Notes under the pieces: generated by a model
What the model saw: the letters and a program-made list of their open reading frames with translations, nothing else
Databases searched by the model: none
What the model was told of the DNA's origin: nothing
Position numbers and translations under genes: made by a program
Shown: piece by piece, positions 20,650 to 31,673 of the stretch
Numbering within the stretch: the stretch's first letter is position 1
Layout: each line of letters opens with the position of its first letter
NCBI GenBank assembly: GCA_004322045.1
Contig: SCRN01000034.1
Coordinates: 248,001 to 312,000, forward strand
Source of the DNA: Paraburkholderia sp.
GTDB lineage: Bacteria > Pseudomonadota > Gammaproteobacteria > Burkholderiales > Burkholderiaceae
Direction of reading: 5' to 3'
Length of the DNA stretch: 64,000 nucleotides

Positions 20650-22071
20650 ATGAAGTGCGTGCCATTTCGGCAGTTCAGCGCGATCGGCTACGCAGCGCTT
20701 CTGGCATTTTGCGTCGAAGCCCATGCGCAGTCGCTCGAAACCCAGGCAACGCAAGCCGGCCAGGCAAACATCAGCGCGCTGCGCGCGGAAGTCGATCAGC
20801 GACTCAAAGAGCTCGAGGCTCTCAAGCGCAAGCTTGCCGATGAAGAGGGGAACTTTCGGCAATTGAGCCGTAGGCTGAATGCGAGCCAGCTCGAAAGCAG
20901 GCACGCTACAGGCGGCACAGATGCCAACGGTCTGCCGGTTGGCGCCGCGGCGACCGGGGGCGCGACCGCCGCAGCGCAGGCGGTTCAGGCCGATCAGGCA
21001 GCAGCACAGGGCGCCGTCCCGCAGAGCGACCAGAACGCAGGCGCCAGTGCCGGTGGAACAGACCAGGCCAGCACGCCTGCAACACCGGTTGGCCAAGCCC
21101 CCGTGGCGGATACGCATCCGCCCGCCGTCGCCCCGATCTTCGACCAGCCCGGCGTGCTGACGCCCCGCCATACGTTGGTCGTCGAGCCCTACTTCCAGTT
21201 CTCCTATTCTTCGCAAAACCAGATCTCGCTCGTCGGGTACACGATCGTTCCGGCGCTCTTGATCGGACTCATCAATGTGAGCGAGGTCAAGACGACGACG
21301 CTGACTGGCGGCGTCGCACTACGGTACGGGCTCACGAACCGGATGGAACTCGAAGTGCGCGTGCCGTACGTCTATCAAACCAACGATACCGTCGCGAGAG
21401 AGCCCTTCGTCGGCACCGCCGCGAACACGACCATCAGCAGCAACGGCCACGGCCTCGGCGACGTCGAAGCGACGCTGCGCTATCAGTTCAATCAGGGCGG
21501 TCCGGACAAGTTCTACTACATTGGCTGGCTGCGCTTGAAGTCGGCCACGGGCAAAAGCCCGTTCGACGTCGTCACCGATTGCGTCGTGTCCTGTGTCGTG
21601 GGCACGACCGCCAACACAGGCCTGCCTCTAGAGCAACCGACCGGCTCGGGCTTCCTCGCGATCCAGCCGGGCCTCACCTGGCTGTTCCCGACCGATCCTG
21701 TCGTGTTTTTCGGCAACTTCAGTTACCTGCACAGCTTCGGCAAGGACGAAAGTCTCACGCTGCGCGATGGACAAACGCAGTTCCTCGGCAAGATTCAACC
21801 AGGCGACATCTGGGGATTCAACATCGGGATGGGCCTCGCGCTGAACGAGAAAGCGTCGGTCAGTATCGGCTACGACCAGAGCATCGTGTTGCCCACCTCG
21901 CAGAACGGACAAACGGTGCCCGGCTCCGTGCGCGTCATACTCGGCACATTGCTGATCGGCTACTCGTACCGGATTTCGCCGACGACCACCCTCAACTTCT
22001 CGATCGGCGCCGGCCTCACGCGAGACACGCCGGACCTCACGCTCTCGCTGCGCGTCCCGATGTCGTTCTGA
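20650..22071 (+). CDS. Outer-membrane beta-barrel protein with N-terminal coiled coil (FapF-like)
   Basis: A 473-residue secreted protein. The ATG at 20650 has GGAG 8 bases upstream and opens a signal peptide ending A-H-A-Q. Residues ~37-75 form a charged heptad coiled coil (L-R-A-E-V-D-Q-R-L-K-E-L-E), followed by an Ala/Gln/Gly-rich linker to ~165. The rest alternates hydrophobic and polar residues and ends in Phe, as expected for a barrel of the phenol-degradation MetA-type family (PF13557). Coiled coil plus this barrel is the plan of FapF, the amyloid exporter. It is convergent with the C39 peptidase operon, its likely partner. Function is inferred. Confidence 0.68.
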   Translation: MKCVPFRQFSAIGYAALLAFCVEAHAQSLETQATQAGQANISALRAEVDQRLKELEALKRKLADEEGNFRQLSRRLNASQLESRHATGGTDANGLPVGAAATGGATAAAQAVQADQAAAQGAVPQSDQNAGASAGGTDQASTPATPVGQAPVADTHPPAVAPIFDQPGVLTPRHTLVVEPYFQFSYSSQNQISLVGYTIVPALLIGLINVSEVKTTTLTGGVALRYGLTNRMELEVRVPYVYQTNDTVAREPFVGTAANTTISSNGHGLGDVEATLRYQFNQGGPDKFYYIGWLRLKSATGKSPFDVVTDCVVSCVVGTTANTGLPLEQPTGSGFLAIQPGLTWLFPTDPVVFFGNFSYLHSFGKDESLTLRDGQTQFLGKIQPGDIWGFNIGMGLALNEKASVSIGYDQSIVLPTSQNGQTVPGSVRVILGTLLIGYSYRISPTTTLNFSIGAGLTRDTPDLTLSLRVPMSF

Positions 22072-22092
22072 TCCGCAGCCCCAAATATGCCT

Positions 22093-22110
22093 GCCGCCAC
22101 GACGTGCGGC
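22093..22110. terminator. Short hairpin between convergent genes
   Basis: GCCGC (22093-22097) pairs with GCGGC (22106-22110) in the 44-bp gap between two converging stop codons. There is no T-run, so any termination role is weak or Rho-assisted. Confidence 0.25.
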
Positions 22111-22115
22111 CACTC

Positions 22116-22745
22116 CTAACGGGGACGCACCGCACCGACCAGTGCGCCGTTCATCGTCGACAGAAAATTCGTCGCCGTGAATGCGCCGAGCGAATTCACG
22201 CTCGTATTGATCGTCGTCACCGATTGGATCTGCTGACCGTTCAGCGTGTTTTGGATCAGCGCGCCAGTCAGCCCCGGCAGCGCGCCCTGCTGCACCGAGT
22301 TGTGCGGGCCGATCTGGATCAGCGCTCCCGTGTTCGCATTCGCCAGCATTTGCGCCTGTTGGGCTGTCATATCGGCAATATTCGGAATGTCGAAGCTCGT
22401 TTGCGCGACCAGATTGCCGTTCACGAAAGCCGCCCGCGAAATGCCGAACGACACCATCAGACCGGACGGCAAGTCAAACCCGCCTCGCATTTCGTCCAGA
22501 CGGTCCCCGCTTATCGCCACGAGATCGGAAGACGCCCACGCGGGGTCCGCATCTTCCGTGCGGGAATCGGGTGCAGCATTCGCATCGGCGGGTGCGAGCG
22601 CGCCTTCAGACATGCGCGGCATCGCCTCGACCGGACCACTTGCGATCGCCGGCGAATCGCTGACTGCCGCGCCCGCCTGGAAGCCGCATAGGCTGCTGCA
22701 TAGTGCGGTGATGATGCCTGCCGCCTTCAGATGTTCGAATGTCAT
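22116..22745 (-). CDS. Secreted protein with R-G-G motif, linked to C39 peptidase
   Basis: A 209-residue protein of no named family. It has a hydrophobic signal peptide (~1-27), an Ala/Asp-rich spacer, and then D-R-L-D-E-M-R-G-G-F at 81-90. After this comes S-F-G-I-S-R-A-A-F-V-N-G and a Gln/Asn-rich segment with L-I-Q-N-T-L-N-G-Q-Q-I-Q. The LDxxRGG sequence is shared with the protein encoded at 23444-23896. It resembles the double-glycine processing site that C39 peptidases cut. It starts 8 bases after the peptidase stop and ends the five-gene minus-strand unit. Processing after Gly89 is a prediction. Confidence 0.65.
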   Translation of the reverse strand: MTFEHLKAAGIITALCSSLCGFQAGAAVSDSPAIASGPVEAMPRMSEGALAPADANAAPDSRTEDADPAWASSDLVAISGDRLDEMRGGFDLPSGLMVSFGISRAAFVNGNLVAQTSFDIPNIADMTAQQAQMLANANTGALIQIGPHNSVQQGALPGLTGALIQNTLNGQQIQSVTTINTSVNSLGAFTATNFLSTMNGALVGAVRPR

Positions 22746-22753
22746 CGCTGTTC

Positions 22754-23440
22754 TCAGAATTCGCCTGGCCCGAGTTTCGGCACGACTACGTTGAACAAGC
22801 CATCGCGCGCAATCGCGGTATCGAGCGGCGCCGACGGCGCAACGTGCCAGTCGCGCGGATCATTGAACTTCGCCATTTCATGCCGGTTGTGGATGACGAA
22901 CACGACATGGTCCTGCCACTCCGCCTCAAAACTGCGCTGTGACAACGCCCGCGTGCCGTTGGCCGGATCGCCGATCAGCACGCGTCCGTTGCGCACGCCC
23001 TTGACCACCACGAAGTGGTGATAACCATGTTCGACGATCAGCACGATCGCAGGTGTGCTCGTGTCGTTGAGCTTGTCGAGCGGCACTTCATAACCGTCCG
23101 CCTGGAAGCCGCGCGAGATCAAGAACGTGCGGATATCGAGCAGCGAGAAGCCTTCCCGGCGAATCTTGTTCTGATCGCCGCGTTGAAACATTTCGACGAA
23201 GGCTTGCTGTTCGCTCACGGGATAATTGTATTGATACGTCAGGAGCGTCGCCACGGCCGCAGAACCGCAACTGAAGTCGAATTGCTGCCTGATGGTCCGC
23301 TTGAAGCGGGCCTCCTTCAGGCTCGTCAAATGCAGCGAGTAATACCCTCCCGACGGATCGGTGACGCCAATAGGATCGGCGTGCGCAGCCGGCAGGCAGA
23401 ACCCGCATGCGAGCAGGAGGTAAGTCGCGACGCGCTTCAT
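22754..23440 (-). CDS. Periplasmic C39-family cysteine peptidase (FapD-like)
   Basis: A 228-residue protein with a signal peptide (~1-21). The papain-like C39 catalytic residues are visible: Gln52/Gln53 and Cys58 in Q-Q-F-D-F-S-C-G-S, His142 in H-H-F-V-V-V-K-G, and Asp158 in I-G-D-P. There is no ABC-transporter portion, so it is a free periplasmic peptidase like FapD, not a bacteriocin exporter. It starts 3 bases after the stop of the gene before it and 8 bases ahead of the next. The two flanking genes both encode R-G-G motif proteins, its probable substrates. Confidence 0.82.
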   Translation of the reverse strand: MKRVATYLLLACGFCLPAAHADPIGVTDPSGGYYSLHLTSLKEARFKRTIRQQFDFSCGSAAVATLLTYQYNYPVSEQQAFVEMFQRGDQNKIRREGFSLLDIRTFLISRGFQADGYEVPLDKLNDTSTPAIVLIVEHGYHHFVVVKGVRNGRVLIGDPANGTRALSQRSFEAEWQDHVVFVIHNRHEMAKFNDPRDWHVAPSAPLDTAIARDGLFNVVVPKLGPGEF

Positions 23441-23443
23441 CGC

Positions 23444-23896
23444 TCAGTTTCCGAAACGCACGTTCAGCACCGTCGCGTTCTGGATCAGTACATTTGCGCC
23501 GGTGTTCTGGATGACCGTCGGCAAGCCGCTCGAATTCGCGAACGATCCGCCGCCGATCGTATTCGAGCCGGTCGCGACGTTCGTGGCGGCGTTATCGGCA
23601 ACCGAGCCGGTCAAATAATTTTGTCCGATCAGCGCATCGCCGCCACGGCGTTGGTCTAACTGTTCGGCCGTTAACGCCACGCCAAAACCGGGCTGCTGCG
23701 CGTCCTGCGACGCGGCGGCCGTCGTTGCGGCAAGGTCGGATTCGGCGCCGCCGATAGGAGCGGCCGCGTCGGTCGCCGCAATGTGCGCCGGTTGTGGTGA
23801 TGCTTGCCCATCGACCGCGGCATAAGCGTTCAAGCCACGAAGTGCAATGACGACAGGAACGAGCAGCAACACCCTCTTCTGTTTCTGTATTTGCAT
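23444..23896 (-). CDS. Small secreted R-G-G motif protein, linked to C39 peptidase
   Basis: A 150-residue protein with a strong AAGGAGG ribosome-binding site 5 bases before its ATG and a signal peptide ending A-Y-A-A. After an Ala-rich spacer comes L-T-A-E-Q-L-D-Q-R-R-G-G (75-86). It is followed by an Asn/Gly/Thr-rich tail ending in a hydrophobic strand-like V-L-I-Q-N-A-T-V-L-N-V-R-F. The tail could add to a fibre or pilot export after cleavage at Gly86. Its stop is 3 bases from the peptidase start. No named family is recognised. Confidence 0.63.
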   Translation of the reverse strand: MQIQKQKRVLLLVPVVIALRGLNAYAAVDGQASPQPAHIAATDAAAPIGGAESDLAATTAAASQDAQQPGFGVALTAEQLDQRRGGDALIGQNYLTGSVADNAATNVATGSNTIGGGSFANSSGLPTVIQNTGANVLIQNATVLNVRFGN

Positions 23897-24010
23897 GGAC
23901 GCCTCCTTGGCCTGCGTGCAGCGAAAACCCGCTGTACAGCGGCCGGATATCCGAGACCGCGCCTCGCGGTCGGCCAGAACGGCCTACGCCATGTCATTCG
24001 CGCGGACATC

Positions 24011-24050
24011 GGGAAAACGCCGTGGAGCGCCTTGCTGCTCGCCCCACGGC
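24011..24050 (-). terminator. Terminator/attenuator inside the Gly-rich/C39 operon
   Basis: On the minus strand GCCGTGG (24050-24044) pairs with CCACGGC (24025-24019), with a further GCG/CGC pair inside, followed by GTTTT. It lies about 40 bases past the stop of the second Gly-rich gene. It probably terminates most transcripts there so that the peptidase genes are expressed less than the abundant Gly-rich proteins. A second, weaker stem (CCATAC/GTATGG, 24051-24071) precedes it. Confidence 0.6.
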
Positions 24051-24088
24051 CCATACCCCCGGCGTGTATGGCTTAACGAAGCTGCCGC

Positions 24089-25321
24089 TCAATGCCCGAC
24101 AGTCAGGTTCGCCTGCACGGTAACGGCTTGCTGCACCAGCGAGGCCAAGCCGCTGTTCTGGCTCATCACAGCGATACCGGCTGCCGATTGCGCTGCGGCG
24201 GTCATGTTGTTGCTCATGTCGAAGGTGCCGGCATTGACCGTGTTGACGCCGCCCGCGCCTCCCGCACCGCCGACGCCACCGTTGCCGACACCGCCGTTGC
24301 CTGCAGCCCCTGCCGCGCCGGCTACGCCTACTGCTCCCGCGGCACCTGCGCCACCGGTTGCACTGCCGTTATCGGCGCTCGTGCTTGCGTCGCCGTTGGT
24401 GCCGCTGCCGCCAGTGCCAGTGCCGCCGGCACCACCCGCGCCCGCCGAGGCGGTCGCCGCACCGCCGTTGCCGCCGGTGCCGCTACCTGCTCCGCCCGTT
24501 GCGGCGTTAGCGCCGGTCGAGGCCGCTCCGCCCGCAGCAGTTGCCGTGCCGCCCATGCCAGTGCCGGAGCTGCCCGCCGCTCCTGCGCCGCCTGAGCCGC
24601 CTGGCGACGAACTGGATACGGTCGAGTTGCGGTAGGCATAGGCACTGCCGCCATTGCCGCCGCCCCCGCCGCCGCCTCCTGAACCGCCGCTCGCCTGCGC
24701 GTTTCCACCCGCGCTTGCCGCGACGCCGCCCAGCGCGACACCGACGGCGCCTGCACTGCCGCCGCGCCCCGCGCCATTGCCGCCCTGGGTGCCGCCGGCG
24801 CCTGCATAGCCGCCGTTGCCGCCGTTGCCGCCATTGCCATTACCAGCAGACGCGCTGCCGTTCGTGGCATTGCCAGCAGTCGCTCCGCCGTTCGTCGCGG
24901 TTCCTCCGTCGCCACCATTGCCGCTGGCGCCACTCTTGCCGCCATTGCCGCCTATGCCTGCGCCGCCGTAACCTTTGCCGCCACCGCCGGCGCTACCACC
25001 TGCGGCGCTGCCCCAGTTACTAGCTTGGTTGCCGATGCCGTTGACTCCCAGGTGCGTCACCGAACCGTCCAGCGTGCTCAACGCCACAGCGCTCGTCGCG
25101 TTGAAGGCGTTTTGCTTCACGTTGGCGTATGACGCGATCTCGTTGGCATTGCTACCTGCCGTCGAGGTTTGTCCTGATGAGGCGGAACTGCTCAGCGAGT
25201 TTGCGCCGGACATCGATTGTTGGTCGCAAGATTGGGCGTTGTCACTGCACGGATTCGCTGTCGCGTACCCGCTAACCCCAAGCGCCAACGCCGCGGCCGT
25301 CGCCATCAGAGTTGTTCGCAT
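24089..25321 (-). CDS. Gly/Asn-rich secreted repeat protein (second paralogue)
   Basis: A 410-residue protein. The start at 25321 follows GGAGG and opens a signal peptide ending A-T-A-N. The mature N-terminus has C-S-D-N-x-x-S-C-D-Q with two cysteines. The middle (~115-350) is G-G-x-G-G and G-N-G-G repeats. The C-terminal ~45 residues carry M-S-Q-N-S-G-L-A-S-L-V-Q-Q-A-V, which loosely recalls curlin repeats. It is a close paralogue of the upstream gene, 16 bases away. Relatives are sometimes labelled 'heme utilization' or 'adhesin' without proof. A surface fibre or matrix protein is my inference. Confidence 0.72.
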   Translation of the reverse strand: MRTTLMATAAALALGVSGYATANPCSDNAQSCDQQSMSGANSLSSSASSGQTSTAGSNANEIASYANVKQNAFNATSAVALSTLDGSVTHLGVNGIGNQASNWGSAAGGSAGGGGKGYGGAGIGGNGGKSGASGNGGDGGTATNGGATAGNATNGSASAGNGNGGNGGNGGYAGAGGTQGGNGAGRGGSAGAVGVALGGVAASAGGNAQASGGSGGGGGGGGNGGSAYAYRNSTVSSSSPGGSGGAGAAGSSGTGMGGTATAAGGAASTGANAATGGAGSGTGGNGGAATASAGAGGAGGTGTGGSGTNGDASTSADNGSATGGAGAAGAVGVAGAAGAAGNGGVGNGGVGGAGGAGGVNTVNAGTFDMSNNMTAAAQSAAGIAVMSQNSGLASLVQQAVTVQANLTVGH

Positions 25322-25337
25322 AAGAGCCTCCGGCCCA

Positions 25338-26570
25338 CTAATGGCCAACGGTCAGATTCGCCTGGACAGTAACGGCTTGCTGCACGAGCGACGCCATCCC
25401 GCTGTTTTGGTTCATGACCACGATGCCTGCTGCGGACTGTGCCGCCCCCGTCATCGAGTTGGCCATGTCGAACGTGCCAGCGCTGACAGTGTTGGCCCCA
25501 CCGGCGCCGCCGGCGCCACCGACCGCTCCGTTACCTACGCCGCCGTTGCCCACACCGCCTGTGCCGCCTGCACCGCCCGCGGCGCCTGTCGCTCCAACGC
25601 CGGCGGTTGCACTGCCGTTGCTGGCCATGGTGCTCGAGCCGCCGTTGGTTGCGCTACCGCCCGTGCCCGTGCCGCCTGCGGCGCCGTTGCCGGCTGTCGC
25701 TGTCGCTGCGCCGCCAGCGCCGCCGCTACCCGAGCCTGCGCCGCCCGTGGCTGTGCTAGCGCCCGTGGTGCCTGCGCCGCCGGTGCCGGTGACTGCCCCG
25801 CCCGTGCCGCTGCCTGAGCCGCCCGCCGCTCCGGCGCCGCCCGCGCCACCCGCTGAAGTAGCGCTGACGGTCGACGTGTGGCCGGCGCTGGCGCCGCCGC
25901 CGTCACCTCCTGCGCCCCCGCCACCGCCACCGCCGCCGTTGCCGCTGGCGCCGCCTCCGAGTCCAGCCGCCAACCCGCCGGCTGCGAGACTACCAGCCCC
26001 GGCCAAGCCGCCATGGCCACTGCCGTTTCCGCCCTGAGTGCCGCCGGCGTGTGCGTTGCCGCCGCTCCCGCCGTTGCCCGCATAGCCGTCGCCCGCGCTG
26101 GCCCCGCCGTTGCTGGCGTTACCGGCTGAGGCGCTACCGTTGGTGGCGCTGCCGCCGTTGCCGCCGCTGCCGCCGTTGCCGCCATTGCCGCCACTGCCAC
26201 CCAACGCCGCGCCGCCGTAGCCGTTGCCACCCTTGCCACCGGAGCCGCCGGTGGCGCTGCCCCAGTTACCGGCCTGATTGCCGATACCGTACACGCTGAC
26301 ACCGGTGACGACGCCGTCGAGCTTGCTCAACGCGACAACCTTCGTGCTGTTGTTGCTGTTCTGCCAGACGGAGGCGTTCGCGGCTATTTCGTTGGCGTTA
26401 CTGCCGCTGGTCGAGGTTTGGGTCGACGCTGCGCTACTGCTTAACGTATTGGCACCGTTCGTCGAGCTCTGGTCGCAGGATTTACTGTTATCACTGCATG
26501 GGTTTGCCATTGCGTAACCGCTGAAGCCTAAGGCGAGCACTGCAGCGGACGCCATCAGTGTCTTGCGCAT
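25338..26570 (-). CDS. Gly/Asn-rich secreted repeat protein (first paralogue)
   Basis: A 410-residue protein with GGAGG ahead of its start and a signal peptide ending A-M-A-N. It has the same plan as its neighbour: C-S-D-N-x-x-S-C-D-Q, a Ser/Thr/Asn-rich segment with S-N-A-N-E-I-A, a long glycine-repeat core, and a nearly identical C-terminus ending V-Q-Q-A-V-T-V-Q-A-N-L-T-V-G-H. Equal length and shared ends show a tandem duplication whose glycine core has since drifted. It is the first gene of the minus-strand unit, with a long A+T-rich leader upstream. Confidence 0.72.
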   Translation of the reverse strand: MRKTLMASAAVLALGFSGYAMANPCSDNSKSCDQSSTNGANTLSSSAASTQTSTSGSNANEIAANASVWQNSNNSTKVVALSKLDGVVTGVSVYGIGNQAGNWGSATGGSGGKGGNGYGGAALGGSGGNGGNGGSGGNGGSATNGSASAGNASNGGASAGDGYAGNGGSGGNAHAGGTQGGNGSGHGGLAGAGSLAAGGLAAGLGGGASGNGGGGGGGGAGGDGGGASAGHTSTVSATSAGGAGGAGAAGGSGSGTGGAVTGTGGAGTTGASTATGGAGSGSGGAGGAATATAGNGAAGGTGTGGSATNGGSSTMASNGSATAGVGATGAAGGAGGTGGVGNGGVGNGAVGGAGGAGGANTVSAGTFDMANSMTGAAQSAAGIVVMNQNSGMASLVQQAVTVQANLTVGH

Positions 26571-27588: not shown

Positions 27589-27876
27589 TTACCAGCGCAG
27601 CCATCCTTTGCCGCGCGCGACATCGACGAACGCGCGAGCGCTCTGTGCGATCTGCGCATCGGCGCCGGGAAACGCCGTCTGCAGTTCGCTGACGATCGCG
27701 GCAACGCTGCGCACACCGTCGCAGCGCTTCAATATTTCACCGGCGCTCACATTGAGTTTGATGAGACCTTCGGGATACAGCATGACGTAAGCATTCTGGC
27801 TGTCTTCCCAGCGAAAGACGAAGTGCGGCGCCAGGCGCGGGCACACGTCATCAGTGACGGACGGATCGATGTTCAT
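27589..27876 (-). CDS. pqqD: PQQ biosynthesis peptide chaperone PqqD
   Basis: A 95-residue protein of the RiPP recognition element family. PqqD binds the precursor peptide PqqA and presents it to the radical-SAM enzyme PqqE. Motifs include P-R-L-A-P-H-F-V-F-R-W-E near residue 14, Y-P-E-G-L-I-K-L-N near 36 and E-I-L-K-R-C-D-G near 48. The start at 27876 gives the family length; the open frame extends upstream into pqqA antisense phase. It follows pqqA by 56 bases on the same strand. pqqB and pqqC, usually between them, are absent. Confidence 0.9.
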   Translation of the reverse strand: MNIDPSVTDDVCPRLAPHFVFRWEDSQNAYVMLYPEGLIKLNVSAGEILKRCDGVRSVAAIVSELQTAFPGADAQIAQSARAFVDVARGKGWLRW

Positions 27877-27932
27877 GGCTCGATGAGCGCAGACGTCGGA
27901 CGGAGACGCTGCCGCTTCCGTCCGGCCGCCTC

Positions 27933-28007
27933 TTAGCGCACGTAAACGTAGGCGGTGACCTCGAAGCCGAGGCGGATCTCGCAGAAAGCCGGATTTTCCC
28001 AAGTCAT
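27933..28007 (-). CDS. pqqA: PQQ precursor peptide PqqA
   Basis: A 24-residue peptide, M-T-W-E-N-P-A-F followed by E-I-R-L-G-F-E-V-T-A-Y and ending V-Y-V-R. It carries the invariant E16-V-T-A-Y20 whose Glu and Tyr side chains become the PQQ skeleton. The start has AAAGGAG 7 bases upstream. It leads the short pqqA-pqqD unit. A 17-bp motif at 28105-28121, shared with the pqqE upstream region, lies about 100 bases ahead. Confidence 0.93.
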   Translation of the reverse strand: MTWENPAFCEIRLGFEVTAYVYVR

Positions 28008-28104
28008 ATCAAGTCTCCTTTTATCTCGGAAGGGCAACATGCCATCCGTGGGCCGATTATTGGCTTGGAATCGCGCGCGCTCCAGCGGCATCTCGCCAAA
28101 AAAG

Positions 28105-28121
28105 CCTCATGAAAATCATGA
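28105..28121 (+). promoter_or_regulatory. 17-bp motif shared with the pqqE upstream region (copy 1)
   Basis: CCTCATGAAAATCATGA, with two TCATGA half-sites around AAA. A 16/17 match lies at 30383-30399, about 130 bp before pqqE. This copy is about 100 bp upstream of pqqA. Two near-identical copies before two transcription units of one pathway suggest a common activator site. Confidence 0.55.
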
Positions 28122-28140
28122 CTCCGCGACGAGGCATCGT

Positions 28141-28186
28141 TGTCTCGTTTTGAAGCAACACACTGTCTCGATTGTCTCGCATTGAA
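28141..28186 (+). repeat. Direct repeats TGTCTCG(N2)TTGAA upstream of the two-component system
   Basis: TGTCTCGTTTTGAA at 28141-28154 and TGTCTCGCATTGAA at 28173-28186 match at 12 of 14 positions and lie 32 bp apart, about three helical turns. A further TGTCTCG is at 28164-28170. Spacing on one helix face fits a response-regulator site between pqqA and the kinase gene. Confidence 0.5.
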
Positions 28187-28324
28187 ACAAGCAAGCGCAG
28201 CCAAGCGGCCGCGCGCCGCGCCGCGGCGACTTGCCACTTATTGTGGTATCAAATTTGCATGTTTTAGATTTCAAGAACCGGGGCATATAGCCCTCGCTCC
28301 TAGATTGAGGGAGTGCATGAGAGG

Positions 28325-29719
28325 ATGACAACACTACGACGACTCAAGCCATTGAGCTTGCATACCCGCATCGGCCTGGTATTGACGGCGCTCGCCGCCA
28401 TTCTGATGACGACGCTTGGCGTGCTATGGGTGAGGCAGACACGCGACGCGATTCATGAAGAAGTGACTGCCGCCGCACGCGTCGCCGAGCAATGGCTGAC
28501 GGTCTCCGCCGCCGAGTTGAGGGCGCAGCCGTCCAACGACAATCGCGCGCGGCTCCTGGCGCAAATCGTCGCCGTCGGCCGGATTCGCGCCAACGCGCTC
28601 GAAGTGATCGATCTTGGCGGATCGTGGCGCTATCAGTCGCCGCCATCGAGTTACAAGGCCGGTCGCTCGGCGCCCGCGTGGTTCGCCGCGCTCGTCGAAC
28701 CGGCGTTTGCCGCGTGGCGCATCGATGCGCCCGGGATCACGCTCGTCCTTCATCCCGATCCGTCGCGCGCCACACTCGATGCCTGGGACGACTTGTGCGC
28801 CATGGCCGGTTGGGCCATCGTCCTCCTATTCGCTTTGTTCATCGCCGTGCGCCACGCGCTCGAGCACGCGCTGCGCCCGCTCGGCCAGATCATGACAGCG
28901 CTGGACCGCACAGGTGCGGGGTGCTTCGACACGCGTCTTCCTGCCTTTCCGATACCTGAGCTGGGGCGCCTTGCCAAAGCGTTCAACGGTATGGCCGATC
29001 GCCTTGCGCAGGCTGTCGACCATAACGTGCGCCTCGAGAGCGAGCGGGAATTGGGCGAGCAAATGCATGCAAGGCTCGAAGCGGAACGCCGGCATATCGC
29101 GCGCGAGTTGCACGACGAATTGGCGCAAGGCATCACGGCGGTGCGTGCGCTCGCGGGGGCCATCGTCCAACGCACCGACGAAAAGAACGCACTGCGGGGC
29201 CCGGCTGAAAGCATCATCGCCGCGACCAATCAGATGCAAGACGGCGTGCGCACCATCTTGCATCGTTTGCGCGACGCACCGACAGCCGATGCGTCCGGTA
29301 CGCAAGCGGCGCTGCGGCATTACTTGCGCATCTGGCAGCAGCACTACCCGGACATCGCGTTGACGGCGACATTTGCGGAGAATGCGATGCCGATCGGCGA
29401 GGCGGTGCTTCACGCGATGTTGCGGATCGTTCAAGAAGGGCTGACGAACGTGGCCCGTCACGCCTGCGCGACACGGGTCGACGTAACGTTGCGGCGCTCG
29501 GGCAACGGTAAATGGCTCGAACTCGTCGTTGCCGACAACGGCGGCGGCCTCCCCGTCGCCTCGCGCACCGCAGGCAGCGGCTTGGGCCTCGCCGGCATGC
29601 GCGAGCGCGTACGCACGCTTGGCGGCCAGTTCGTATTCGAACCCGGCACGGGCGGAGGCGCTCGGCTCGGCGTGCGGTTACCCGCCGTCGACCCCGCGCC
29701 TTTGGAGCACCGATCATGA
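28325..29719 (+). CDS. Sensor histidine kinase, NarX/NarQ (HisKA_3) type
   Basis: A 464-residue membrane sensor. Two membrane segments (~16-36 and ~160-176) flank a periplasmic sensor region of about 120 residues. Then come a HAMP-like linker, the phospho-acceptor box R-E-L-H-D-E-L-A-Q (His263) and an ATPase domain with G-L-T-N-V-A-R-H, D-N-G-G-G and G-L-G-L-A-G-M-R-E-R. It overlaps the response regulator by 4 bases (ATGA). A GTG at 28313 is an alternative start. Position between pqqA/pqqD and pqqE suggests control of PQQ synthesis or of a PQQ-dependent alcohol oxidation; the signal is unknown. Confidence 0.85.
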   Translation: MTTLRRLKPLSLHTRIGLVLTALAAILMTTLGVLWVRQTRDAIHEEVTAAARVAEQWLTVSAAELRAQPSNDNRARLLAQIVAVGRIRANALEVIDLGGSWRYQSPPSSYKAGRSAPAWFAALVEPAFAAWRIDAPGITLVLHPDPSRATLDAWDDLCAMAGWAIVLLFALFIAVRHALEHALRPLGQIMTALDRTGAGCFDTRLPAFPIPELGRLAKAFNGMADRLAQAVDHNVRLESERELGEQMHARLEAERRHIARELHDELAQGITAVRALAGAIVQRTDEKNALRGPAESIIAATNQMQDGVRTILHRLRDAPTADASGTQAALRHYLRIWQQHYPDIALTATFAENAMPIGEAVLHAMLRIVQEGLTNVARHACATRVDVTLRRSGNGKWLELVVADNGGGLPVASRTAGSGLGLAGMRERVRTLGGQFVFEPGTGGGARLGVRLPAVDPAPLEHRS

Positions 29720-30363
29720 ACCGCTCTCTCGCTGGTCTCAGCGTGCTGTTGGCCGATGATCACGCCATGGTCCGCATGGGCTTTCGCTTGCTGCTCGAAG
29801 GGGCCGGAGCCACCGTACTGGGGGAAGCCGAAAGCGGCGAACAAGCGCTGCGTCTTTACGATGAGATCCGGCCCGACGTGCTGACGATGGACGTGTCGAT
29901 GCCGGGCATCGGCGGGCTTGCTGCGCTCGAACGGCTGCGCGCCCATCACCCCGCGGCGCGTGTGCTGATGCTGTCGGCCCATCACGATGCCGTAGTTCCC
30001 GTGCGGGCGCTCAAAGCGGGCGCCGCCGGCTATCTGTGCAAGCGCTGCTTGCCGCAGGAATTGATTCAGGCGGTGCGGCTCGTGGGGCAGAATCGGCGCT
30101 ATCTCGATCCCGAACTCGCGCAGCAGGTGGCGTTGACTCAGCTCTCCGGGGCCGCGCATCCGGCACAAACCCTGACCGACAAGGAGTTCACGGTTTTCCT
30201 GCAACTGGCGCAGGGCCGCTCGGTCAACGAAGTCGCTTCGGACTTTCACTTGAGCGCGAGCACGGTCGGCACGCATCTTTATCACATCAAGCAGAAGCTC
30301 AATGCAAGCAACGCCGCCGAATTGGCCGTCATCGCCATGCGCGCCGGGCTGATCGAGGCGTGA
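29716..30363 (+). CDS. NarL/LuxR-family response regulator
   Basis: A 215-residue regulator. The receiver domain has acidic pocket A-D-D-H (13-16), phospho-acceptor D59 in T-M-D-V-S-M-P-G, and K108 in C-K-R-C. The C-terminal LuxR-type helix-turn-helix (~147-205) contains V-N-E-V-A-S-D-F-H-L-S-A-S-T-V-G-T-H. The start overlaps the kinase stop. The shared 17-bp motif at 28105 and 30383 and the TGTCTCG repeats are candidate targets. Confidence 0.88.
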   Translation: MNRSLAGLSVLLADDHAMVRMGFRLLLEGAGATVLGEAESGEQALRLYDEIRPDVLTMDVSMPGIGGLAALERLRAHHPAARVLMLSAHHDAVVPVRALKAGAAGYLCKRCLPQELIQAVRLVGQNRRYLDPELAQQVALTQLSGAAHPAQTLTDKEFTVFLQLAQGRSVNEVASDFHLSASTVGTHLYHIKQKLNASNAAELAVIAMRAGLIEA

Positions 30364-30382
30364 CGCGGCCGCCGCTCCGCAC

Positions 30383-30399
30383 CCTCATGAAAATCACGA
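30383..30399 (+). promoter_or_regulatory. 17-bp motif shared with the pqqA upstream region (copy 2)
   Basis: CCTCATGAAAATCACGA differs from the copy at 28105-28121 at one base. It lies 20 bases past the response-regulator stop and about 130 bases before pqqE. It implies that pqqE has its own promoter rather than relying on read-through from the regulator genes. Confidence 0.55.
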
Positions 30400-30527
30400 G
30401 GCTGCTTTACCCGAAACCGCGAGCGCGTTCTCCATCGATTCGCGTCGCCGCGCTCGCGACGTAGGCCAAAAATATGTCCAAAGGGCGGGCGCATCGCACC
30501 GCCCGATGGAGGAGAGAGGAAACGGCT

Positions 30528-31673
30528 ATGCCTAAGGAATCGCACGGAATCAGCCTCGACGGTCAAGGGCAGCCCCTGTGGCTCACGCTCGAACTGACCT
30601 ACCGCTGCCCGCTGAAATGCTCGTGGTGCAACAACCCGCTCAATTTCAAGGACTACGCGAAGCGCGAACTCTCGACGCAGGAGTGGAAAGACGTTCTGCG
30701 CGATGCCCGCGCGTTGGGCTCGTTGCAGCTCGGTTTCTCGGGCGGCGAACCGCTGGAGCGGGACGACTTGGAAGAGCTCGTCGCCTACGCCGACTCGATC
30801 GGCTTCTACACGAACCTCATCACTTCCGGCATCGGGCTGACCGAGCAGCGCATGATCGCCCTCAAGCAAGCCGGCCTGAAGCAGGTTCAGCTATCGCTGC
30901 AAGCGATGCGGCCGCAACTGAACGACGAACTGGTCGGTGCGAAGGCGCACGCGCATAAGCTCGAAGCCGCGCGCCGCATCAAGGCGCACGGCCTGCCGAT
31001 GGTGCTGAACATGCCGGTGGGCCGGCAGAACATCGGCGAGATCGATGCCGTCTGCGAATTTGCCGCCGATATCGGCGTGGAATACATCGAATTCGCCAAT
31101 ATCCAGTACTACAACTGGGCGCTGCTCAATCGCGACGAGTTGATGCCCACGCTCGAGCAGGTGCGTGAAGCCGAGGCGACGATTCAACGCTGGCGCAGCA
31201 AACTGGGCGAGCGCATGACGATTTATTTCGTCATTCCCGACTATTACGAGAGCCGTCCCAAAGCATGCATGAACGGCTGGGGGGCGATCCATCTGACCAT
31301 CGCCCCCGACGGCGTCGCCATGCCCTGCCAGGAAGCGCGCGTGATCCCGGGGCTCGTATTCGAATCCGTGCGTGAAAAGCCGCTGTCGTGGCTCTGGCAC
31401 GAATCCGAACTGTTTCGCCGTTATCGCGGGCTCGATTGGATGCGCGAGCCGTGCCTTTCTTGCTCCGAAAAGGAAAAAGATTTCGGCGGCTGCCGCTGCC
31501 AGGCATTCCTCCTCACCGGCGATGCGGCCAATACCGATCCGGCCTGCAGCCGCTCGCCGCATCATCATCTCGTGCAACAGGCTGCCAGCCAAGCGGCGCA
31601 GCCGCTGCGGTTTCGCAAGCCGCTCGTGAAGCGCAGCGGCAGCGGCGTTTCCACGGCTTTCATGGAGGATTGA
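30528..31673 (+). CDS. pqqE: PQQ biosynthesis radical SAM enzyme PqqE
   Basis: A 381-residue radical-SAM protein that forms the Glu-Tyr carbon-carbon cross-link in PqqA. The [4Fe-4S]-SAM cluster motif is C27-P-L-K-C31-S-W-C34, preceded by L-T-Y-R. The C-terminal SPASM-type part holds the auxiliary-cluster cysteines in M-P-C-Q-E, E-P-C-L-S-C and F-G-G-C-R-C. The start at 30528 follows AGAGAGGA. It is separated from pqqA/pqqD by the two-component genes and transcribed the opposite way. The next ORF begins directly after its stop codon. Confidence 0.93.
   Translation: MPKESHGISLDGQGQPLWLTLELTYRCPLKCSWCNNPLNFKDYAKRELSTQEWKDVLRDARALGSLQLGFSGGEPLERDDLEELVAYADSIGFYTNLITSGIGLTEQRMIALKQAGLKQVQLSLQAMRPQLNDELVGAKAHAHKLEAARRIKAHGLPMVLNMPVGRQNIGEIDAVCEFAADIGVEYIEFANIQYYNWALLNRDELMPTLEQVREAEATIQRWRSKLGERMTIYFVIPDYYESRPKACMNGWGAIHLTIAPDGVAMPCQEARVIPGLVFESVREKPLSWLWHESELFRRYRGLDWMREPCLSCSEKEKDFGGCRCQAFLLTGDAANTDPACSRSPHHHLVQQAASQAAQPLRFRKPLVKRSGSGVSTAFMED

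Follow-up and report, generated by a model that had tools for sequence, protein, structure and literature searches.

What does a free C39 peptidase cut when its gene lies beside a gene for a FapF-like outer-membrane barrel, and what would such a pair export? In the Fap system of Pseudomonas (fapABCDEF), secretion depends on the peptidase FapD; its target was called unclear in 2017 (PMC5557850), and its substrate was described as yet to be determined in 2018, in a report that also placed fapD-fapF pairs in five further phyla (PMC6173800). Fap proteins are said to lack canonical C39 sequences; FapE and the region near the FapF linker were named as candidate FapD targets on account of their GG and GA motifs, and N-terminal peptides of FapE were absent for ~70 residues (PMC5557850). 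By 2025, FapD was thought to process the FapE N-terminus and the periplasmic region of FapF (PMC12822426). The locus analyzed here lies in a 64,000-nucleotide stretch of Paraburkholderia sp. DNA (the window; contig SCRN01000034.1) from a genome of 5.99 Mb across 54 contigs.

Six open reading frames were all recovered where the initial annotation had placed them. They are contiguous, as it had stated, with a correction to their orientation: five genes form a minus-strand run from 26570 down to 22116 with intergenic gaps of 3-192 bases, and the barrel gene (20650-22071) is on the opposite strand, convergent with the other five. Signal peptides were assigned by visual inspection rather than with a predictor. 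The features of the locus are as follows.

20650..22071, plus strand: FapF-like outer-membrane barrel P0001, 473 aa, with a signal-like N-terminus, a helix at about residues 34-85, a disordered linker, and a barrel from about residue 176
22116..22745, minus strand: small secreted protein P0002 in the FapE position, 209 aa, with a signal-like N-terminus, a variable pro-region, and an LDEMRGG site
22479..22499, minus strand: predicted C39 cleavage site of P0002, L83-G89, before Phe90; conserved and fitting the PCAT1 leader consensus
22754..23440, minus strand: free periplasmic C39 peptidase P0003, FapD-like, 228 aa, assigned from Pfam, NCBIfam, and invariant catalytic residues
23444..23896, minus strand: small secreted protein P0004, 150 aa, with a signal-like N-terminus, a pro-region, and an LDQRRGG site
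23639..23659, minus strand: predicted C39 cleavage site of P0004, L80-G86; conserved in alignment A4
24089..25321, minus strand: Gly/Ala-rich secreted protein P0005, 410 aa, a candidate exported matrix or fiber subunit
24092..24235, minus strand: P0005 counterpart of the P0006 C-terminal module
25338..26570, minus strand: Gly/Ala-rich secreted paralogue P0006, 410 aa (alignment A6)
25341..25484, minus strand: conserved C-terminal module of P0006, about residues 363-410, with many invariant columns in A6

The two large proteins had been called Gly/Asn-rich paralogues. They are paralogues of equal length, and their composition is Gly/Ala-rich (Gly 30-32%, Ala 19-21%, Ser 12%, Asn 8-9%). Searches of Pfam and NCBIfam at E up to 1 gave no match for either. 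Beyond the Gly-rich genes, the window encodes a PqqD-like protein, a histidine kinase, a LuxR-type response regulator, and a radical SAM/SPASM protein (27592-31670). A GC-rich hairpin follows the P0005 stop codon (23990-24085, minus strand). An attenuator between the Gly-rich and machine genes was considered here and dropped because the hairpin is not exceptional (z -0.93 versus shuffles) and the window's stretch is not among the 5 of 38 intergenic stretches that contain a hairpin with a U-tract. A promoter and terminator scan was near chance, with 2 found for 1.2 expected and 6 found for 5.3 expected.

The barrel and the peptidase relate the locus to the Fap machine. P0001 matches the NCBIfam FapF model with 142 bits (E 2e-41), under its equivalog cut-off of 700, and a profile of 34 barrels matches FapF in the PDB (5O67) at E 4e-39 over the barrel part. 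The AF2 model of P0001 has a mean pLDDT of 64, with the barrel mostly at 70-90. In it, a helix spans residues 34-85, and after a linker modeled with low confidence there are 15 strand elements, starting at residue 176. A fold search of the PDB with this model returned FapF entries in the first 18 rows, with 5o67/5o65 the best. The window barrel is thus homologous to FapF by sequence and by fold, and its FapF-like character, proposed initially for comparison of structures, was borne out by all three lines. P0003 matches Pfam Peptidase_C39 with 78 bits (cut-off, 22) and NCBIfam FapD with 131 bits, under the cut-off of 330. On sequence grounds it is homologous to FapD. Pfam identifies only the C39 domain in its 228 aa, with no ABC domain. 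The C39 family profile also matches the peptidase domains of 6mpz (LahT) and PCAT1. The catalytic residues Cys58, His142, and Asp158 had been picked out from the single sequence; together with Gln52 they show no variation across the window-type (63 of 63) and classical (27 of 27) enzymes.

Relatives of P0003 were identified in 93 of 200 genomes of the family and fall into two identity bands, 57-100% and 32-42%. The upper band contains 49 genomes, including that of the window. A second-band match is also present in 22 of these 49 window-type genomes, the window's own among them; such matches need not all be Fap (locus L097 is not). Every one of the 48 window-type family relatives preserves the order small GG protein, C39 peptidase, second GG protein, and barrel. 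A Gly-rich gene lies ahead of this four-gene block in 46 of the 48, and the remaining two loci, L058 and L079, are ended there by contig ends. The barrel gene is convergent in 27 and co-directional in 22 of the 49 family loci, the window included.

A scan of named genomes matched at least 595 stretches, at least 570 of them encoding relatives of any type, and the best 80 were used. The best named match among those listed is in Paraburkholderia mimosarum (85% identity). The best 80 loci come from Paraburkholderia, Burkholderia, Cupriavidus, Ralstonia-labelled strains, Pandoraea, Dyella, Luteibacter, Lysobacter, Luteimonas, Rhodanobacter, Pseudoxanthomonas, Rhodoferax, Massilia, Janthinobacterium, and others. 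Among these 80 of at least 595, the C39 peptidase and each small-protein family were found in 80, the barrel in 79, and the Gly-rich C-terminal module, sought with a profile of the last 62 residues, in 78. In the two loci without the module, the C39 open reading frame starts 833 and 684 bases from the contig start. Full five-part order occurs in 71 of the 77 loci (among the best 80) in which every part was found; in the other 6, the barrel is upstream of an intact block. Cupriavidus metallidurans CH34 has the C39 peptidase, both GG proteins, the barrel, and the Gly-rich module. The 80 named loci share genomes with the family sample, so the two sets of counts are kept separate. Together they establish the conserved neighborhood that the initial annotation had asked to be looked for. 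Its label of a Burkholderia-type system is too narrow, as the system is also found in Dyella, Luteibacter, Lysobacter, Rhodanobacter, Pseudoxanthomonas, Rhodoferax, and Massilia. The locus is a conserved unit of Gly-rich protein(s), a small GG protein, a C39 peptidase, a second GG protein, and a FapF-like barrel.

The two small secreted proteins each contain a single L-x3-R-G-G, in agreement with the R-G-G motifs noted earlier; the link between motif and peptidase is the main addition made here. In both, the site has the form phi(-12)xxxxL(-7)xxxR(-3)G(-2)G(-1) and follows a signal-like N-terminus and a variable pro-region. All 49 family members of P0002 carry it, as do all 49 of P0004 (48 RGG, 1 RGA). 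Alignments of four protein families were built with 34, 34, 29, and 25 of the 49 rows. In the P0002 family (A3, 29 rows), L83, R87, G88, G89, and F90 are invariant; in the P0004 family (A4, 25 rows), L80, R84, and G85 are invariant and G86 is conserved in at least 90%. Column conservation is 1.0 at L(-7), R(-3), and G(-2) and 1.0 and 0.96 at G(-1), versus pro-region means of 0.24 and 0.33 (29 and 25 rows). Outside the family, [LM]-x3-R-G-G was found in the FapE-position gene of all 14 window-type loci examined, within a 403-aa open reading frame in L121. Among the best 80 of at least 595 named loci, P0002 homologues read RGG in 79 and RAG in 1, and P0004 homologues read RG[GAST] in 62 and [STC]GG in 18, so that the P3 position is not always Arg in the latter (SGG, TGG, or CGG in 18 of 80).

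This form resembles the leader of PCAT substrates, L(-12)xxxE(-8)L(-7)xxxxG(-2)G(-1), in which the residues at -12 and -7 make up a hydrophobic knot and specificity is tentatively assigned to -4 (PMC6959990). A hydrophobic -12, Leu -7, Gly -2, and Gly -1 occur in 49 of 49 of both proteins, with one ending in GA. Position -8 is mostly R, K, or Q in the window type, in contrast to Glu in the PCAT consensus. C39 homology and leader positions -12, -7, -2, and -1 are therefore shared with the double-glycine systems (PCAT1, LahT, and ComA). Unlike in those systems, the window peptidase is free, lacks an ABC domain, and has a signal-like N-terminus; the leader comes after a signal-like N-terminus, and export would cross the outer membrane. 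The R-G-G segment resembles a cleavage site, close to the C39 double-glycine leader but placed for the periplasm, and C39 cleavage at this site in P0002 and P0004 is judged quite probable. The exact bond, placed by C39 practice, would leave a mature part of about 120 aa for P0002, starting at Phe90, and a conserved mature part of 64 aa for P0004, starting at Asp87 and with a Q/N-rich stretch at its end.

Matrix scans placed the site near these loci. The cleaner control is the held-out scan, which counts open reading frames rather than proven genes: in loci outside the training set, 12 of 69 secreted-like open reading frames near the locus scored versus 0 of 39 far from it, and in classical loci 8 of 131 near versus 0 of 89 far. 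With training loci included (score of at least 12), the scan scored 71 of 1042 near genes, 1 of 464 far genes, and 0 of 464 shuffled ones; gene choice was greedy here, and some small genes were missed. A similar L-x3-R-G-x segment follows the barrel helix in the linker of 32 of 34 aligned barrels and is lost in the window (20890-20916) and in L038. Among the best 80 of at least 595 named loci, 28 of 79 barrels lack L/M-x3-R-G-[GAST], and in classical FapF a linker site with G-[KR] is sporadic (5 of 27 loci). The linker site is regarded as secondary because it is sporadic in classical loci and lost in the window.

A counterpart of the leader-type site is present in classical FapE, where [LM]-x3-[RTS]-G-[KR] was read in 26 of 27 loci and none is shown in L112. 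The FapE alignment covers 23 of the 27 loci, and three of the four omitted (L089, L096, and L109) still have the K/R site. In one genus, 21 of 25 genomes encode a FapD that exceeds the NCBIfam cut-off, and FapF is above its own in the one genome of that genus with a match. FapE of this genus has EL-x-D-x-[EQ]-[LM]-x2-LRG[KR] in 23 of 23 sequences read, with Glu or Gln at -8. A profile alignment (hhalign) of the two FapE-position families is confined to a 34-column segment surrounding the site (probability 76, E 2.4e-5). The residue at -1 therefore follows the enzyme clade, Gly in the window type and Lys/Arg in Fap. In the same genus, the site lies 39-46 residues from the start of the open reading frame in 11 of 23 and 51-78 in 12 of 23, where the longest frames may start too early; these distances fit only in part the ~70 residues without peptides (PMC5557850). 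Because FapE was already a suspected target in that work, the present addition consists of a specific leader-type site and its conservation. A search of open-licence papers turned up no account of such a site in FapE or of the Gly-rich system.

An extra small secreted gene with L-x3-R-G-G precedes fapA in classical fap operons of the family (L088:4450-4968, L092:5375-5785, L093:10967-11413, and L095:11451-11945). The site of the pre-fapA gene reads RGT in L036, L094, and L096. A comparable site, A-H-G-S, lies in FapA of at least four loci (L036, L094, L095, and L096).

Homology to FapD and FapF and a similar gene order could mean that the locus is a diverged Fap operon with degenerate subunits, and the C-terminus of P0004 has a weak profile similarity to Fap repeats (probability 7.7). 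We consider this very improbable. The Fap subunits FapB and FapC have the repeat pattern X15GX4NX3GX6NX7 (PMC3792158). No strict repeat was found in any of the six window proteins, whereas the positive controls L036, L088, and L095 have 3 per protein, and neither the FapB nor the FapC model of NCBIfam matched the six at E up to 1. The same search gave no FapA-named match, from a library that may lack a FapA model. A separate Fap-type operon was identified elsewhere in the same genome, on contig 43 (L036:3254-9701). It encodes two subunit proteins with 3 strict repeats each, and its NCBIfam scores for FapB (80 bits), FapC (54), FapD (197), and FapF (353) are all below the cut-offs. In a C39 tree of 63 proteins (31 of 63 window-type, 26 of 27 classical, and 6 of 10 third-kind enzymes), the window type forms one clade (99/98) and classical FapD another (97/91); L128, with a C39 frame broken by a stop, and L097, which fits neither clade, were excluded. 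Because strict repeats are absent, the C39 clade is separate, and a Fap-type operon is found elsewhere in the genome, the locus is not assigned to Fap, and the distinct system proposed at first sight stands on the same three results. Catalytic residues invariant in 90 of 90 enzymes weigh against another reading, in which R-G-G is a docking signal that the C39 protein binds as a chaperone without cleavage. In some type 1 systems, C39-like domains that are inactive are described as chaperones (PMC5557850), and K/R at -1 in classical FapE counts against a C39 cut because it is unlike the described C39 substrates, for a cleft called narrow and double-glycine specific (PMC6959990). An active-site Cys mutant of FapD, however, abolished FapC secretion (PMC5557850), and pure docking is distinctly unlikely. 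An acidic pocket that would explain K/R at -1 was sought and rejected: columns differ between the clades (e.g., 137, 141, and 163), with no clear acidic switch.

The third alternative takes processed P0002 and P0004 as the products, exported as peptides, with the Gly-rich proteins as separate surface proteins. The nearest precedent is the nap island of Neisseria, where a C39 peptidase (NapP) and a FapF-related channel (NapF) are paired with GG peptides (PMC11798529), and in the window the two GG genes lie on either side of the peptidase gene. The nap products differ in being small cationic peptides, with a role in autolysis, and the comparison draws on the published description of the island (PMC11798529). 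Mature P0004, with 64 residues, is Q/N-rich and not cationic (one Arg, two Asp), and no immunity-like gene was recognized among the six. The Gly-rich genes are also near-universal partners (78 of the best 80 of at least 595 named loci, both misses near contig starts), and we find peptide export unlikely, if less so than docking or a degenerate Fap operon.

Compared with Fap, the window system has in common a FapF-like barrel with an N-terminal helix, a periplasmic C39 peptidase, a secreted protein with a leader-like site between peptidase and barrel, and low-complexity secreted proteins. It differs in having Gly/Ala-rich proteins in place of proteins with strict Fap repeats, an extra GG protein before the peptidase gene, G rather than K/R at the last site position, and a barrel gene that is convergent in 27 of 49 family loci. 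Profile matches also link it to the Fil cluster (NCBIfam FilB and FilC), with 114 bits for P0003 and 57.5 bits for P0001, but these scores are far under the cut-offs of 475 for FilB and 630 for FilC. A Fap-like repeat shared by the Gly-rich C-terminal module, P0004, and P0002 was considered and rejected, with a best local probability of 36 and no strict repeat; the shuffle control for this comparison used global, not local, scores. A third kind of C39 and barrel locus was also found (L129-L138); in 8 of the 10, no more than 120 bases separate the two genes. The leader site was present in 0 of 29 secreted-like open reading frames near these loci. The training-inclusive scan scored two open reading frames near them, and the one in L133 ends in T-A-G at the site.

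As a whole, the locus is likely a separate system, sister to Fap, for the export of surface or matrix proteins after C39 leader cleavage. All six proteins would cross the inner membrane by Sec, judging by their signal-like N-termini. The free periplasmic peptidase would then recognize the double-glycine-type leader segment in P0002 and P0004 and cut after R-G-G to give the two mature parts. Cleavage may license or prime the FapF-like channel, by analogy with the suspected role of FapE, and the processed small proteins and uncut Gly/Ala-rich proteins would reach the surface through it and assemble there. Classical Fap would follow the same leader logic, with Lys/Arg last in the FapE site, and the two enzyme clades would differ in specificity at that position. 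The initial suggestion that the Gly-rich proteins replace FapB/FapC as the fiber would fit their position and near-universal presence; position and composition are the basis for this candidate role, and we hold the chance that they are an exported polymer to be about even.

Predictions for single residues follow from the conserved site in both systems, which differ naturally at one position, and the question of the FapD target becomes testable through R-G-G and R-G-[KR] sites. We tentatively go a step further, to a reading with slightly less than even odds: a leader code for FapF-type export, recoded at -1, may keep two insulated lines in one cell, with the window line building a Gly-rich, non-Fap surface polymer. 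If so, the code would be the C39 double-glycine leader moved to the periplasm and read by a free peptidase, with Gly at -1 in the window system versus Lys/Arg in Fap. As a second export locus it is common among soil and plant-associated genera; its large Gly-rich product has no match in Pfam or NCBIfam, and the polymer would, on that reading, occur across many Burkholderiales and Xanthomonadales.
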